From assembly GCA_019359695.1 (NCBI GenBank), contig JAHHGV010000001.1, positions 248,001-312,000 on the forward strand: a DNA stretch of 64,000 nucleotides. The letters run 5' to 3'. Below the pieces are notes generated by a model. It was not told the DNA's origin. It made no database searches and saw nothing but the letters and a program-made list of their open reading frames with translations. This document shows, one piece after another, positions 17,456 through 64,000 of the stretch; within the stretch, counting starts at the first letter, position 1, and each line of letters starts with the position of its first letter. The stretch comes from Brasilonema angustatum HA4187-MV1. GTDB lineage: Bacteria; Cyanobacteriota; Cyanobacteriia; Cyanobacteriales; Nostocaceae. A program made the position numbers and the translations under genes.

Positions 17456-17489
17456 TTGTTTCGGTCATAATTGGTATATTGGGTTGAGC

Positions 17490-18065
17490 ATGGAGATCAT
17501 TACCAAAAGATTTTTGCTGCGCGAGTTTATTGAGGAAGATGAGCCTGCGTTTATTGCCTATCATGCCGATCCACGGTATGCGGAGTTTTGTGCACCAGAA
17601 GAGGTAACACCTGAGTATGCACGATCGCTTCTGGGGCTTTTCGGTCAATGGGCAGTCGAACAGCCACGTAGCAATTATCAGTTTGCGATCGCTCACCTCC
17701 AGAACCCCCAGGAAATATTTGGCTGCTGCGGTCTGCGCCGTGAAGGCTATGGCCCTGACAAAGCGGAACTAGGAATCGAACTAGCACCACAGTGCTGGGG
17801 TCGTTACGGCTACGCAATTGAGGTTGCTAGGGCGCTCATCGAGTTTGGGTTCCGCGAACTCGGGTTGAAAGAGATTCGAGGAATTTCTGTTAGTGCGAAT
17901 TCACGGGTGGAACGCTTGGCGCGCCGATATGGGTTTGTAGCAGTTGGGACACGCCCAGGTGCACCTTGGATGCAAACGCGAGGATGGAGTCAAACTGAAT
18001 GGCAACTTACACGGGAAACATGGGAGGGTAACGAGCGAGCGGGCGGACGAACTCTCAAACGCTGA
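17490..18065 (+). CDS. GNAT N-acetyltransferase (RimJ/RimL type)
   Basis: The 191-residue product carries the N-terminal ITKRFLLREFIEEDEPAF strand-helix block of RimJ/RimL-like acetyltransferases. It also has the acetyl-CoA region GIELAPQCWGRYGYAIEVAR and the C-terminal SANSRVERLARRYGFVAVG. Such enzymes acetylate protein N-termini or small amines, but the substrate is unknown here. The start at ATG 17490 is preferred over TTG 17484. Its base composition is somewhat more GC-rich than the AT-rich repeats beside it. It is convergent with ppk1. Confidence 0.85.
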   Translation: MEIITKRFLLREFIEEDEPAFIAYHADPRYAEFCAPEEVTPEYARSLLGLFGQWAVEQPRSNYQFAIAHLQNPQEIFGCCGLRREGYGPDKAELGIELAPQCWGRYGYAIEVARALIEFGFRELGLKEIRGISVSANSRVERLARRYGFVAVGTRPGAPWMQTRGWSQTEWQLTRETWEGNERAGGRTLKR

Positions 18066-28373: not shown

Positions 28374-28970
28374 ATGGTTATAGCAGTTAGCATGTCACAG
28401 TTCCTAATCGAGCCTTTCATCCTAGGTTCTTTTTTGCCATCCCTGCCGTTAGATAGCCTTTTCTCCACCCAAGGTATCATGGTGATGCTACTAGCAGCCT
28501 ATGCTGGTGCGATGTGGATGTTTCTTACCAGTGCTCCAAAAGTACACACTGTTATGGTGTCAGATTTGGAGGTGGCACGACAGTTGTATGAAGGACTGCT
28601 AGATTTGCCAGCGGCTGAAGTGCCTTTACACTACTATTACAACTACGAGCAAACTTTAGGCGCAACGGGAGTTGATCCGCTTTACCTGTCTAGCACTCCC
28701 TCCTTTTCCGGCAGCAGAATGAGCAATGCTAGCGAGGGGCTTTGGTATCAGCTAAAGAAAAATACTCAGCTGCACATTATTATGGGAGCAAGTCTAGGCA
28801 ATAAAAATCAGCAACGCCACGTTTGCTTTGACCGCGATTGCCTAGAAATGATTTTAATGCGAGTGGAAACGCGGGGGTTGAAATTCAAGATTCGCAGCGA
28901 GAAGCCATTAAATTTTCTGGTTAAGGACTACGAAGGGCGCATTATTGAAATGGCTGAAGTCGCCAGTTAG
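28374..28970 (+). CDS. VOC/glyoxalase-like protein with an N-terminal hydrophobic segment
   Basis: The 198-residue protein opens with a hydrophobic stretch (about 30-52, IMVMLLAAYAGAMWMFLTSA). It then has a glyoxalase-type beta-alpha-beta unit: HTVMVSDLEVARQLYEGLLD, and at the end HVCFDRDCLEMILMRVETRG and FLVKDYEGRIIEMAEV. The terminal 'D-x-x-G-x-x-I-E' is typical of the VOC superfamily. A complete set of metal ligands is not evident, so the catalytic activity is uncertain. The ATG at 28392 is an alternative start. Confidence 0.65.
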   Translation: MVIAVSMSQFLIEPFILGSFLPSLPLDSLFSTQGIMVMLLAAYAGAMWMFLTSAPKVHTVMVSDLEVARQLYEGLLDLPAAEVPLHYYYNYEQTLGATGVDPLYLSSTPSFSGSRMSNASEGLWYQLKKNTQLHIIMGASLGNKNQQRHVCFDRDCLEMILMRVETRGLKFKIRSEKPLNFLVKDYEGRIIEMAEVAS

Positions 28971-29033
28971 TCAAGCTTAGTGCAATCGTATTCCACATTC
29001 TGCACTTAGTAATCTACGGCATTAATTTTGAAA

Positions 29034-29078
29034 TATAATCAAATTCCCGACTTCGCAGAAGTCGGGAATTTGATTATA
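29034..29078. repeat. Perfect 21-bp palindrome with a 3-base loop
   Basis: Arms of 21 bp (core CAAATTCCCGACTTC and GAAGTCGGGAATTTG) enclose the loop GCA. The structure lies about 65 bp after the VOC-like gene. It may act as a terminator, but the length and the CCCGACTTC core also fit an interspersed palindrome. Confidence 0.65.
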
Positions 29079-29465
29079 GTCACATCTTGCATCAATAATA
29101 ATGGATTGTATTTAGCTACTCAGTATTCTAGTCAAAGTCCTTGATTTAGCGATAATTTAGCGATAAAAGCTAACAAAAATAATGTAGCTTTATCGCGTCG
29201 CGGATTATTTTGTGTTGTACGGTTTTGTACAGAGAAGTACAAGATCTGAGCCTATAGGATTTTAGTTTTTCGCCAGAAACATCTTTCAAGGCGAAATTGC
29301 ACTGCCCTACTTTTCGCACAAATTTGGCAAGTTTGATATTCGCGTTGGGTCTGTGGTCATCATGCTTGGGGTTGTTGAGGCCGGGATACAAACTCTTGCG
29401 TTATATCACCTTTTGGTAAACTACACGAAGGTATCGGGTCATTTCTTGCGCGAAAGGTAACTCCA
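29079..29465. other. Non-coding stretch before the GC-rich antiporter
   Basis: No gene was supported. A 73-aa minus-strand frame (29170-29391) has no family-like features. The composition shifts from AT-rich to GC-rich near the right end, next to the antiporter, which may mark the left edge of transferred DNA. Confidence 0.45.
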
Positions 29466-30644
29466 ATGCACAACACGACAGAGATTCTATTCAGTCTGTT
29501 TATTGTCTTTGTAGCCGCGCAAATCGGCGCGGAAATCGCCGGACGCCTGAAACTTCCCGCCGTCGTCGGCGAGATCGCGGTGGGCTGCGTCGTTGGTTCC
29601 TCTGCATTGGGTTGGGTGCATCTCAATGAGCCGCTGGAAGTGCTAGCGGAGATCGGGGCGGTGTTGCTCCTGTTTTCGGCGGGCTTGGAAACCCGCGTAG
29701 CCGATCTTCGCAAAGTGGGGAAAGTCGCGGGGCTAGTTGGTGTTTTCGGTGTCATTGTGCCGTTTCTTTTGGGCTTGGCTTCGGCGAAGTTTGCGGGGTT
29801 TGCGACACCGAAAGCCCTGTTCTTCGCGGCGGCGTTTGTCGCTACCTCTGCCGGAATCACGGCACGGGTATTGCAGGATATGAAGGTGTTGGGGCGGATC
29901 GAAAGCCGTATTATTTTGGGCGCGGCGGTGATTGACGACATTCTTGCGATGCTCTTGCTAAGCACGGTAACGGCGCTGCAAGGCGGGGGCGGCGTGGACG
30001 TGGCGAAACTTGCCGTAGTTCTGGTGCAGGCGGTGGGTTTCGTGGTCGTTATTGCGTTAGTTGGCACAAAGATCATGCAGAAAAATTCTTCCCTGCTCGA
30101 TGCGCCCATTAATCCGCTCTCGCCGCTTACCCTCTCCCTCGCGCTCTGCCTGGGGTTGGCTGCATCCGCCTCCCAAATCGGCTTAGCCGCAATTATTGGC
30201 GCATTTCTGGCAGGTATGGTGGTGGCGGAAAGCAGCCAGCGTCATATTCTGGAAAAGCAGATTCAACCGCTCATGGCATTCCTTGTGCCGTTTTTCTTTG
30301 TTGTCACCGGTGCGCAAGTGAACCTAAGAGAATTGGCAAGCCTGTCCGTACTTGGAACGCTCCTGCTGGTGACGCTGCTCGCAGTCATAGGCAAACTTGT
30401 CGGCTGTGGATTAGGCGCTCGCTCGCTCGGCAAGAAGTCTGCCCTTATCGTGGGGATGGGGATGGTTCCGCGTGGAGAGGTTGGTATCATCGTGGCAAGT
30501 CTGGGCAAACAGGCACAGGTATTCTCCGGCACGACTTACGCGATCATCATTGCTATGTCATTGCTCACATCGGTTATCGCGCCTCCGGCGCTGAAAGTCA
30601 TGCTTGCTGACTCACCGCCTGAAGAACCGGAAATTTTGGAATAG
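29466..30644 (+). CDS. Cation/proton antiporter (CPA2, Kef/NapA type), probably acquired
   Basis: The 392-residue membrane protein has about 12-13 hydrophobic segments. CPA2 features are AGRLKLPAVVGEIAVGCVVG near the start, the Asp pair in GAAVIDDILAMLLLS (ion-binding Asp-Asp), AAIIGAFLAGMVVAES and the late block GMGMVPRGEVGIIVASLG. It exchanges Na+ or K+ for protons. It lacks the C-terminal RCK/TrkA regulatory domain found in many Kef proteins. The DNA is strikingly GC-rich: 40 of 60 bases in 29521-29580, against 28 of 60 in 28621-28680. Codon choice (GCG, GGC, CTG) differs from the neighbours. Confidence 0.9.
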   Translation: MHNTTEILFSLFIVFVAAQIGAEIAGRLKLPAVVGEIAVGCVVGSSALGWVHLNEPLEVLAEIGAVLLLFSAGLETRVADLRKVGKVAGLVGVFGVIVPFLLGLASAKFAGFATPKALFFAAAFVATSAGITARVLQDMKVLGRIESRIILGAAVIDDILAMLLLSTVTALQGGGGVDVAKLAVVLVQAVGFVVVIALVGTKIMQKNSSLLDAPINPLSPLTLSLALCLGLAASASQIGLAAIIGAFLAGMVVAESSQRHILEKQIQPLMAFLVPFFFVVTGAQVNLRELASLSVLGTLLLVTLLAVIGKLVGCGLGARSLGKKSALIVGMGMVPRGEVGIIVASLGKQAQVFSGTTYAIIIAMSLLTSVIAPPALKVMLADSPPEEPEILE

Positions 30645-30705
30645 GCACTTGGAATAGGCTTTCTGCGTTAGCTCTGACCATACTTAACCTCATTCCAGAA
30701 GAAAA

Positions 30706-32124
30706 CTACTGCTTTGGCGAACCTGCTAACTTCAAAGCTTCCTGAGCTGAGACTCCTTCGCTTTGAGTACCGAAATACGATAAAACAGCAGCAGCCTCAA
30801 CACGCGTGACTGATTTCTTAGGCTGAAATAGGGTTGTATAACCAAAGACTCGACGAATATTCGATTTTTCACCACTTTGGAAATCTGCCAGAACTGCCCG
30901 TAATGCTTTCGGGTCAATTTTCCCAGCATCTTGAAAACCCCAGGTTTGCTTAACTGCTTCTAAAGAAGCAGAGGGTAAAGCTTGACGTGTGTCAAGGGGA
31001 ACTTTCCAAAGAATCAACTGCTCGCGTGTTAAAGGTGCATCAGGTTGAAACAATACAGCTGTAGAATCTCCAGATAGAGAACTGGGAATTAATCCGGCCT
31101 CAGCTAATCCCTGAATTGCCCGAAAATCAGGGTCAGTTTTTGGCACATCCCGAAATGTTGGTTGAGAGCTTTCTGATGCCAAACGAATCTGCTTTGCTGG
31201 GTTATTGGCATACATCGCATTGTTAGCAGTAACTAGCCAATGGGCAAATTGCCGATGAGTCACGACTTTACCTGGTTCAAACTGGTTGGTTGTGGTACTA
31301 TTGCCCTTAAGCGCATTTGATTCTACATTGAAAACTCCTAATGCTGCCAAATCTTGAATATATTGCCGGAATTCTTGAGGTATTTTGTTCAAATCGCTGA
31401 ATTCTTGAGATTTGGACCCAGAACTGGGAGTGGATGTAGGGTTTTTGTTATCTAACGTACCACTTGGTTGTGTTGTCGAGTCTTGTGATGGCACCGGACT
31501 AACCAACTGCGACTCACCAGATTGCACACTATTGTCAGTAGCTTGAGGAGTTGGAGTTGGGTTAGCTTGTGGTGTTTGAGTGGATAATGGTGAGTATGAA
31601 ATGTCTATTTCAGTTGATGTTTGTGGTTGATTGGGTGCAGCGTTGGTAACTGTTTTCGGTTGAACGGAAACTTTTAGTTGTATATCATTGCCGCGCGCTT
31701 CAAAAGAGCTTTTCGCCTCATCTGTGGAAGCTTTTTGCACAATCTGCCACTTGTTTGCCTGAAACTGTTGGCGATAATAGCTAACAATAAAATTGCTGGG
31801 ATCAGAACTGAGCCAGCGACTGGATACAGTGGGATTCTCATTGCTTAATGGTGTCACCTCTTGTAGGGTGGCATTAGGATACAACGGGATCTGTTTGGGA
31901 AAATCACTTGGCAATTGAACTGTCGCCTGAGGGGTTTGTGGTTGTTGGCTAGTGCGCACCTCTTGAGCACCAAAGGTGGCTGGGTTATTCTTTAGTTTGG
32001 GGTCAGCCGCCAAAGACTGCTCAATGTTTTTGGCAGATCGACTGTTGGCACAAGCTGTCAAACAGGTGAGTAAAACAGCCAAACTCACTAATACAACTGG
32101 ATGTTTAAAGCGCACCACAAGCAA
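30706..32124 (-). CDS. SLH-domain lipoprotein
   Basis: The 472-residue protein starts with a lipoprotein signal (VLVSLAVLLTCLTAC, lipobox L-T-A-C). A conserved globular segment (about 70-165, LPSDFPKQIPLYPNATLQEV) and a Pro/Thr/Ser/Gln-rich linker (about 170-240) follow. The C-terminus has S-layer-homology-type repeats (EFSDLNKIPQEFRQYIQDLA; FRDVPKTDPDFRAIQGLAEA; TTLFQPKKSVTRVEAAAVLS). SLH domains bind secondary cell-wall polymers or peptidoglycan, so it probably bridges the outer membrane (or inner membrane) and the wall. The first codon is TTG at 32124, and the GTG codons at 32118 or 32115 are also possible. Confidence 0.82.
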   Translation of the reverse strand: MLVVRFKHPVVLVSLAVLLTCLTACANSRSAKNIEQSLAADPKLKNNPATFGAQEVRTSQQPQTPQATVQLPSDFPKQIPLYPNATLQEVTPLSNENPTVSSRWLSSDPSNFIVSYYRQQFQANKWQIVQKASTDEAKSSFEARGNDIQLKVSVQPKTVTNAAPNQPQTSTEIDISYSPLSTQTPQANPTPTPQATDNSVQSGESQLVSPVPSQDSTTQPSGTLDNKNPTSTPSSGSKSQEFSDLNKIPQEFRQYIQDLAALGVFNVESNALKGNSTTTNQFEPGKVVTHRQFAHWLVTANNAMYANNPAKQIRLASESSQPTFRDVPKTDPDFRAIQGLAEAGLIPSSLSGDSTAVLFQPDAPLTREQLILWKVPLDTRQALPSASLEAVKQTWGFQDAGKIDPKALRAVLADFQSGEKSNIRRVFGYTTLFQPKKSVTRVEAAAVLSYFGTQSEGVSAQEALKLAGSPKQ

Positions 32125-50592: not shown

Positions 50593-50608
50593 CTATTCAT
50601 CTATAAGA

Positions 50609-50682
50609 TCGGGATGACAGGATTTGAACCTGCGGCATCCTGCTCCCAAAGCAGGCGCGCTACCAAGCTGCGCTACATCCCG
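50609..50682 (-). tRNA. tRNA-Pro (anticodon TGG)
   Basis: On the minus strand, the acceptor arms CGGGATG and CATCCCG pair fully. The anticodon stem CCTGC/GCAGG encloses TTTGGGA, giving anticodon TGG, and the T-arm has GGTTCAAATCC. The discriminator base is A, and no CCA is encoded. It reads CCN codons. Confidence 0.96.
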
Positions 50683-50857
50683 ATTAACTTGTTATTTTAA
50701 CTTAGTTGTTGCTTTTTGGCGACAATCAATAGCTCATTTAAGATTCTACTTGATATATTGCCAAATATTCATCCACATCATATCATGCTTTGTTGCTTTT
50801 TGTAAACTGTTGCCTTCCCTATACATAGACTTATAACAGTAATGTCTCTGTTAAAAA

Positions 50858-62240: not shown

Positions 62241-64000
62241 ATGAGTACTATTAACGTGACGTCTAATGCTGACAATGGTGCTGGTTCTCTTAGAGAAGCG
62301 ATCGCTCAAGCAAAATCAGGTGATACCATTCAATTTGGCTCTAACCTCGCCAATCAAACAATTAACCTTACCTCAGGTGAACTCACAGTTGACAAAAACC
62401 TGACAGTTGATGGTGCAGGTACTAGTGGTCTAACCATTAGTGGCAATAATGCCAGCCGAATTTTCGATGTCACAACACCAGGCTCAAGTTTTACGTTGCG
62501 AAATTTGACCCTTGCCAATGGAAAATCCAGTGGTGAAGGTGAAAATGGTGCCGGAGGTGCAATTCGGACAGTGACTAGTGATAAGCTCACCACTCTTAAC
62601 GTAGAGAATAGCAAATTTATAAATAACGCCTCTTCAGGAAATGGAGGAGGTGCAATTTGGGCAGGGTTTAATACAGCCAACACCATCACTAACAGTCTGT
62701 TTGAGGGTAACGATGGTACTGCTGGTAAAAGCGAACGCGGTGGCGGAGCGATCGCAGTTAATACTAACAGTACTCTCACGGTCAAAGGTAGTGAGTTCGA
62801 TAATAACAAGGGAACCAATGGCGGTGCAATCAACACTGTCTTGAGTACACTCACAGTAGAAGACTCTACTTTCCACAATAATGACTCAACTGCTGGAGGT
62901 CCGATCGGTCCTAATACCATAGGTTACGGTGGAGCCATCTATACTGATGGAGCGAATGCCTCTGGAGCGAATTTCGATCATGGTTCTGTAGGCGGCACAA
63001 TTACCATTCGCAACAGCAAATTTGAGGGTAACAAAGGTGCTGGACAAGGGGGAGGACTTTTTCTGTATGCTTATCCCCCAGACAAGATCATCGTTGACAA
63101 TTCCACAATTACTAAAAATGAGGTCGTTCTGGATAGTCAAGGTGATTCACTCGGCGGTGGTTTGCGAATTGGTAATGGTGAGTTTACTATCAACAACACC
63201 ACCTTCACAGATAATCGGGCACTGGAGCAAGGTGGTGGTTTGTGGGTAGGAGAACAATCGCCAGGTACCATCACCGAGAGTACGTTCTCTGGTAATCGAG
63301 CCGAGAGTACTGACGGCAAAAATGGGATGGGTGGAGCGATCGCTTTAGCTAATGGCTCTAATGCCGTCACTGTCGATGGTACGACTGTTGCTAACAACTA
63401 CGCTGGGTGGCAAGGTGGAGGCATTTCTGGAGGAGGTTCGTCCACTACTCTTAAAAACTCAACCTTTGCAAATAACGTTGCTTATAATGGTGGTAACAAT
63501 TGGAACATTAAAAACCAAGTTACTGATCAACTCAGCGATGGTGGGGGAAATACTCAATGGCCAGCTAAGAACTCAAATGACCCCACTGACATCAATGTCA
63601 CAGCATCTATTAATATTGCACAGCCTGATTTGAGTAATTTGCAGAACACCAGCCAAAACGTAAGCAATTCTGTGACTGACAATAGTTCTAATCTGGCTAC
63701 AGCCATTACCCCAGCATCTGTAAGTGACAATAGCTCAACTAAAGGTACCCCTGTAGACGCCACAGGTAATACCTCCAACAATAATCCTAATGATAGCCTT
63801 ACCCCTGTCGCTGTTAATGGAAATAGCTCTAGCAATGCTTCGGATGGTAGTCTTACTCAAGTGCCCGGTAACGATAGATCCAGCAGCAGTACCCCTATAT
63901 TCACTGTCAGTGGTGATAAGCTACTGTGTGGTAATATTACTCAGGCTGATCATCTCTACAGTGGTCTTAGCCAGGACACTCTCACACAAGGCAAGGGAAT
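62241..64000 (+). CDS. 5' part of a beta-helix/RTX-type surface protein gene (runs off the window)
   Basis: From ATG 62241 a single frame stays open for all 1760 bases to the edge (at least 586 residues). It has no signal peptide. The start NADNGAGSLREAIAQAKSGD is the LREA-type entry of Pmp/right-handed beta-helix domains. Repeated Gly/Asn/Thr-rich rungs follow (SGGGAIxxx, NSKFxxN, TVDxSTI patterns), with GGGG-like turns to about residue 445. A Ser/Asn/Thr linker comes next, then a degenerate RTX-like end (SGDKLLCGNITQADHLYSGL). It is probably exported by a type I system, with calcium-binding repeats beyond the window, acting as a cell-surface or matrix protein. Confidence 0.85.
   Translation, partial: MSTINVTSNADNGAGSLREAIAQAKSGDTIQFGSNLANQTINLTSGELTVDKNLTVDGAGTSGLTISGNNASRIFDVTTPGSSFTLRNLTLANGKSSGEGENGAGGAIRTVTSDKLTTLNVENSKFINNASSGNGGGAIWAGFNTANTITNSLFEGNDGTAGKSERGGGAIAVNTNSTLTVKGSEFDNNKGTNGGAINTVLSTLTVEDSTFHNNDSTAGGPIGPNTIGYGGAIYTDGANASGANFDHGSVGGTITIRNSKFEGNKGAGQGGGLFLYAYPPDKIIVDNSTITKNEVVLDSQGDSLGGGLRIGNGEFTINNTTFTDNRALEQGGGLWVGEQSPGTITESTFSGNRAESTDGKNGMGGAIALANGSNAVTVDGTTVANNYAGWQGGGISGGGSSTTLKNSTFANNVAYNGGNNWNIKNQVTDQLSDGGGNTQWPAKNSNDPTDINVTASINIAQPDLSNLQNTSQNVSNSVTDNSSNLATAITPASVSDNSSTKGTPVDATGNTSNNNPNDSLTPVAVNGNSSSNASDGSLTQVPGNDRSSSSTPIFTVSGDKLLCGNITQADHLYSGLSQDTLTQGKG

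Follow-up and report, generated by a model that had tools for sequence, protein, structure and literature searches.

Gene content and layout of the locus

The window analysed here, meaning the whole stretch of 64,000 nucleotides, belongs to an 8.5-Mb Brasilonema genome. Two convergent genes enclose a compact group of features. The left flanking gene (28374-28970, + strand) encodes 198 aa that match no model of Pfam or NCBIfam at E<=0.001, and the right one (30706-32124, - strand) encodes 472 aa with an S-layer homology domain. Between them lies a perfect 21-bp inverted repeat (29034-29078), followed directly by an insert that spans 29079-30678. When the end rule of the repeat described below is applied to both sides, the insert measures 1600 bases in this genome and 1582 in that of Brasilonema sp. 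CT11. Proposed copies of a target duplication border it at 29075-29078 on the left and at 30679-30682 on the right.

The insert is organised into four parts, all annotated on the + strand. A MITE-like non-coding repeat (29079-29250) starts at its left edge and has the ends GTCACATCTTGCAT and GTACAAGATCTGAG. A leader (29251-29465; G+C content 43.7% over 29253-29465) holds a 64-codon open stretch for which no relative was recognised. The single gene of the insert (29466-30644) encodes a NapA-like CPA2 Na+/H+ antiporter of 392 aa, which consists of a transmembrane domain only. A short tail (30645-30678) closes the insert, and its last 14 bp match the right end of the repeat at 9 of 14 positions (10 of 14 in CT11). 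Upstream of the antiporter gene, the preliminary description had noted a long empty stretch. Few open reading frames indeed occur there: among those of at least 70 aa, 28971-29465 contains a single 73-aa frame (29170-29391, - strand) and the end of an antisense frame. Part of this apparently empty DNA, however, is the MITE-like repeat.

The leader was searched for relatives at several levels. A by-eye suggestion that it represents a remnant of another transporter was discarded, as no Pfam match appeared at E<=1. No match was obtained in 148 cyanobacterial genomes beyond its own. The same result came from 291 genomes of the Armatimonadota phylum, where an empty answer from this type of search shows nothing. 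Across the nine genomes of the loci compared, the leader matched only Brasilonema CT11 and, weakly (E 0.24), one metagenome-assembled genome (MAG).

Promoter-like consensus matches were also recorded. Three of them lie on the plus strand at 29052-29156, within and just before the repeat, and the region holds five on both strands against 1.4 expected. Judged from these motifs, the antiporter gene might draw a promoter from the repeat.

Composition and codon usage

The antiporter gene stands out from the window in base composition. Its G+C content is 56.2%, with values of 0.64/0.42/0.63 at the three codon positions over the whole gene. The comparison set comprised the non-overlapping open reading frames of at least 150 aa in the window (41 including the antiporter gene). 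The other 40 average 43.3% G+C (sd 3.8, maximum 52.9) and 36.1% at third positions (sd 4.9, maximum 49.7). Recalculation reproduced exactly the contrast from which the preliminary description had started, namely 66.7% in 29521-29580 versus 46.7% in 28621-28680. Its remark on codon choice also holds. Scored under the window's own usage, the antiporter gene has the lowest mean log codon probability of all 41 frames and is therefore the most atypical of them.

The long shadow frames on the other strand, which had been listed as a further sign of transfer, do exist (a 249-aa frame at 29360-30109), and 258 antisense codons inside the gene are free of stops. Such a run is not unusual under codon shuffling. 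Shuffling of the synonymous codons within the gene gave an antisense run at least as long in 235 of 1000 cases, and drawing the codons instead from six neighbours did so in 62 of 1000. Since shuffling so often yields an equally long stop-free run, the antisense frame carries no information, and the shadow frames were dismissed both as genes and as evidence of transfer.

Two other reading frames deserve mention for their own composition. The frame at 17484-18065, a GNAT acetyltransferase by Pfam, ranks second in G+C content among the 41 (52.9%) and is possibly foreign too. Second in atypical codon usage is the frame at 62354-62920 (- strand); it has no Pfam match and may not be a real gene.

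Filled and empty sites in Brasilonema

Comparison with related genomes defines the insertion site. Both flanking genes are present in all seven Brasilonema genomes searched and are neighbours of each other at this site in every one. A close copy of the antiporter gene occurs in two, namely our own genome (G000) and that of Brasilonema sp. CT11 (G004). It is cleanly absent from the site in the other five (G001, G002, G003, G005 and G006). The flanking-gene matches are about 1.7 kb apart in the two filled genomes and about 107-197 bp apart in the five empty ones. Presence of the gene at this position in all close relatives had been named beforehand as the observation that would speak against transfer; five of the seven genomes instead lack it, with the flanking genes adjacent. 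A second assembly, that of CT11, carries this insert at the corresponding position, which argues against contamination.

The empty sites also place the edges of the insert. Similarity to them resumes from about 30679-30682, and those of G001 and G003 have a single TATA where the filled sites have two edge copies. The 8-mer TGACTATA of the empty site recurs on both sides of the insert, with one change per copy. Within the window, 31 of 63,992 8-mers lie within one mismatch of this sequence, both flanking copies included.

The palindrome at 29034-29078 had been proposed as a landmark of the insertion. It is real and adjoins the insert. Gap alignment, however, showed that the empty sites of G001, G002 and G003 carry a form of it and that the gaps of G005 and G006 do not. 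Its presence at the empty sites of three relatives indicates that it is older than the insertion, and for the same reason it was ruled out as an end of the inserted DNA. The terminator scan did not list the palindrome, and a terminator role for it would be conjectural. As for the idea of a transferred island, transfer itself is supported, but the size has to be revised: the DNA in question is no large island but a 1.6-kb single-gene cassette that has a short repeat at its start. In the gap of G002 (L106), an additional palindromic stretch, GTAGAGACGTTGCATGCAACGTCTCTAC, is found that is missing from the gaps of the other six genomes; small insertions may have occurred here on more than one occasion.

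A MITE-like repeat at the left edge

MITEs are non-autonomous elements bounded by terminal inverted repeats. The sequence at 29079-29250 has inverted ends and dispersed copies, and at 172 bases it is longer than the other full copies (153-160 bp; 155 in CT11). At E<=1e-5, with partial copies included and up to 40 candidates scored per genome, 18 matches were counted in our genome and 21-24 in each of three Brasilonema relatives. Exact 4-bp direct repeats flank 11 of 25 other copies, against a mean of 0.7 and a maximum of 5 when flanks were paired by shuffling (2000 trials). These 25 copies were drawn from 31 places examined; the partial copies L157, L178 and L179, the insert itself (in the window and as L168), and L169, the flanks of which are nearly the same as those of L155, were left out.

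In these properties, including a length of about 155 bp and the 4-bp target duplications, the family resembles bacterial MITEs. It differs from them in that this copy is followed by a foreign gene and in that the ends and open reading frames listed for nine regions near additional end sites revealed no parent insertion sequence. Only more short relatives with the same ends were recognised in these regions. The repeat was also the only part of the insert to match plasmid DNA, with two hits, both in Nostoc and about 70% identical.

Other members of the family show features of their own. On other contigs of our genome, L183-L191 are short repeats with the common ends CTCANATCTTGCAC and GTGCAAGATNTGAG, several of them close together, and the bases next to their ends suggest that their interiors differ. 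On contig 1 of G001 (903917-904307), two partial matches (query 5-85 and 116-159) are separated by 265 bases where about 30 were expected, perhaps through another insertion within a repeat copy.

Route of insertion

Arrival of the gene within a cassette of roughly 1600 bp that entered the narrow gap separating the convergent genes, directly beyond the older palindrome, would account for the layout described above. Insertion of this cassette by mobile-element machinery is likely, and it would be the foremost route because the left end is made up of the MITE-like repeat and there seems to be a duplication of target bases. Two other routes were considered and set aside. Carriage by a plasmid or virus found no counterpart: nothing in the plasmid collection matched the protein at E<=1e-40, and viral contigs yielded no relative of it. 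Integration at a tRNA gene was rejected because the two tRNA genes of the window sit at 99-173 and 50607-50683.

How closely the repeat was involved is a separate matter. From the terminal bases, a cassette with MITE ends on both sides is possible. The left end is clear; the right end matches the repeat terminus at 9-10 of 14 positions, and the edges read TATA/CATA in our genome and TGTA/TATA in CT11. Within the window, a right-end match of this quality has a frequency of 0.2% for 9 of 14 (our genome) and 0.03% for 10 of 14 (CT11). The corresponding 14 bp of the empty sites, which served as a control, already score 7 (G003) and 8 (G001), so that the target sequence accounts for most of the match. 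We hold only tentatively, at less than an even chance, that the insert was one transposing unit in which a foreign gene between MITE-like ends was moved by a putative transposase that recognises those ends.

A contender with a standing just short of even is that illegitimate or microhomology-driven recombination integrated the cassette and that the MITE-like repeat reached the left edge independently. The modest score of the right end, set beside those of the two empty sites, is what such a history would leave, as is the finding that the repeat copy at 29079-29250 is not itself flanked by a clean 4-bp duplication. Independent arrival sits less well with the outer end of the repeat, which coincides with the insert boundary, and with the near-copies of TGACTATA on both sides, given how few 8-mers of the window come that close. 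The insert may also have a two-step history. Mobile-element insertion of the cassette, with the repeat as its left end, is the reading that we carry forward.

Identity of the antiporter

The protein was assigned at the level of family and of structure. PF00999 (Na_H_Exchanger) covers residues 19-380, which is nearly the full length (E 1.3e-65). Of five NCBIfam models matched, the best is TIGR00932 (CPA2; residues 16-286, E 3.9e-53), with 180.7 bits against a curated cut-off of 238.3, which is a threshold for naming and not a defining trait of the CPA2 superfamily. More specific assignments were rejected by score. The potassium efflux models KefB, KefC and YbaL reached 65.5, 72.6 and 76.2 bits against equivalog cut-offs of 804, 752 and 700, respectively, and the iron transporter model MagA (NF045626) reached 92.2 bits against 700.

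The nearest solved structure by sequence is NapA of Thermus thermophilus (4bwz; query 5-383, E 3.8e-79). Residues D157, D158 and K310 align with positions 156, 157 and 305 of the 4bwz chain, as counted on the alignment. Two publications link these two aspartates and the lysine to antiporters of the group that are electrogenic (PMC6181914, PMC8850199). The NapA match together with these residues suggests electrogenic Na+(Li+)/H+ exchange, and the NapA-like CPA2 antiporter would probably expel Na+ (or Li+) in exchange for protons. Its near full-length match and aligned aspartate pair and lysine thus tie the Brasilonema protein to NapA (4BWZ, CPA2 NapA-type); unlike NapA, it is the product of a transferred single gene in a cyanobacterium, and the likeness is one of sequence.

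Our own genome contains seven further, much weaker matches to the antiporter, two of which are neighbouring pieces on contig C84. The antiporter gene hence adds to an existing set.

Relatives of the protein and likely origin

The closest relatives outside Brasilonema belong to another phylum. Among the best 80 of 200 matches, the first two are from the Chthonomonadaceae MAG SKYG99 (76% identity) and the Armatimonadota MAG ES-bin-147 (75%), in both cases over nearly the whole length. Next in the same set come other Armatimonadota and three Chloroflexota at 68-72%, followed by Rhodanobacteraceae at about 59-64%. Other cyanobacteria reach at most 40% identity among the matches listed. Clustering with cyanobacterial orthologues, which had been put forward as an argument against transfer, is contradicted by this gap between 75-76% in Armatimonadota and at most 40% among the listed cyanobacterial CPA2 matches. 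CPA2 relatives as such occur in 40 of 40 genomes of the cyanobacterial search (own included), the best outside G000 and G004 at E 1e-51. A match at E<=1e-80 was found in 1 of 386 sampled cyanobacterial genomes, our own. The family is patchy in Armatimonadota too: 19 of 291 genomes of that phylum have a match at E<=1e-100.

Gene neighbourhoods and DNA similarity were compared as well. The two nearest Armatimonadota copies have neighbours that differ from each other and from those in the window, with epimerase and methyltransferase genes beside one and leucine-rich-repeat and AdoHcyase genes beside the other. DNA similarity to these two loci sets in some 30 bp into the gene, so that neither leader nor repeat is covered by it.

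Phylogenetic trees place the protein with less precision than the identities. A first, maximum-likelihood tree of 54 rows, which included 16 of the 80 loci of the outside-match list and all 19 Armatimonadota matches, put the Brasilonema pair among Armatimonadota, in a set of 25 rows from Armatimonadota, Chloroflexota and Pseudomonadota with support of 98/93. From the second tree, five long rows (L003, L004, L005, L142 and L144) were dropped; from the third, these and 14 cyanobacterial rows. The second tree grouped the pair with the two nearest Armatimonadota at 48/78. The 25-row set, starred in the first tree, did not reappear as starred in either of these reduced trees; of the starred sets reported for them, a single one includes the pair, and it consists of just these two proteins. 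Alternative placements were not rejected by AU tests, either with distant cyanobacterial rows (second tree, p 0.111) or with more distant Armatimonadota rows (third tree, p 0.445 and 0.294). We read these non-rejections as failures of placement due to very long outgroup branches, because the pair shares 76% identity with its nearest Armatimonadota match and no more than 40% with the cyanobacterial matches listed.

Taken with composition and the empty sites, these data make it very probable that the gene was horizontally acquired and encodes a NapA-like CPA2 antiporter, a joint statement that does not extend to the mechanism of insertion. The source would lie outside cyanobacteria, most likely in an Armatimonadota-like donor. 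As the highest outside identity is just 76%, the true donor is presumably unsampled.

That the donor was instead a member of Chloroflexota or of another unsampled bacterial group, with Armatimonadota themselves as recipients, is unlikely, though it deserves attention. The patchy distribution within Armatimonadota, the presence of the family in Chloroflexota and Rhodanobacteraceae and the weak support for the nearest branching would all allow it. In G+C content, moreover, the antiporter gene (56%) resembles the copies of three Chloroflexota (56.5-57.5%) more than those of the two nearest Armatimonadota (63%). The ranking of identities, in which both top matches are Armatimonadota and the three Chloroflexota follow, weighs in the other direction. 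Vertical inheritance of an old cyanobacterial gene that was lost nearly everywhere and drifted in composition might appeal to the AU result for the long cyanobacterial branch, but it is highly improbable in view of the single close copy among 386 cyanobacteria, the short gap in five relatives, a third-position G+C content of 63% where the other frames average 36%, and the very many independent losses needed.

Evolution after arrival and wider relevance

A transferred antiporter alone is an ordinary kind of event. The wider interest lies in the small repeat at its edge. The locus is a clear example of an ion-transport gene of foreign origin in a filamentous cyanobacterium, and filled and empty sites are both known for it. 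If the repeat carried the gene, common and supposedly passive small repeats would be linked to gene acquisition; should the insert have moved as one transposing unit, these small repeats, abundant in Brasilonema and present in Nostoc plasmids too, would represent a general entry route for foreign genes into such chromosomes. Titles and opening lines of abstracts on horizontal transfer in Brasilonema, on antiporter transfer between Armatimonadetes and cyanobacteria, and on MITEs of cyanobacteria and Nostoc do not name the antiporter gene. Likewise, the terms 'antiporter', 'transposase' and 'Armatimonad' are absent from the main text of a paper on Brasilonema octagenarum (PMC7261140).

The antiporter gene is under purifying selection. 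Between our genome and CT11, it differs by 18 synonymous and 9 non-synonymous changes, which correspond to a dS of 0.060, a dN of 0.0105 and a dN/dS of 0.177. The recipient was probably the common ancestor of the two Brasilonema lineages, from which the gene would have passed on vertically under purifying selection. One acquisition in that ancestor, followed by vertical inheritance under constraint, fits the divergence of the surroundings: the neighbouring genes have dS values of 0.080 and 0.142 between the same two genomes, and the lower value of the antiporter gene agrees with a single shared acquisition.
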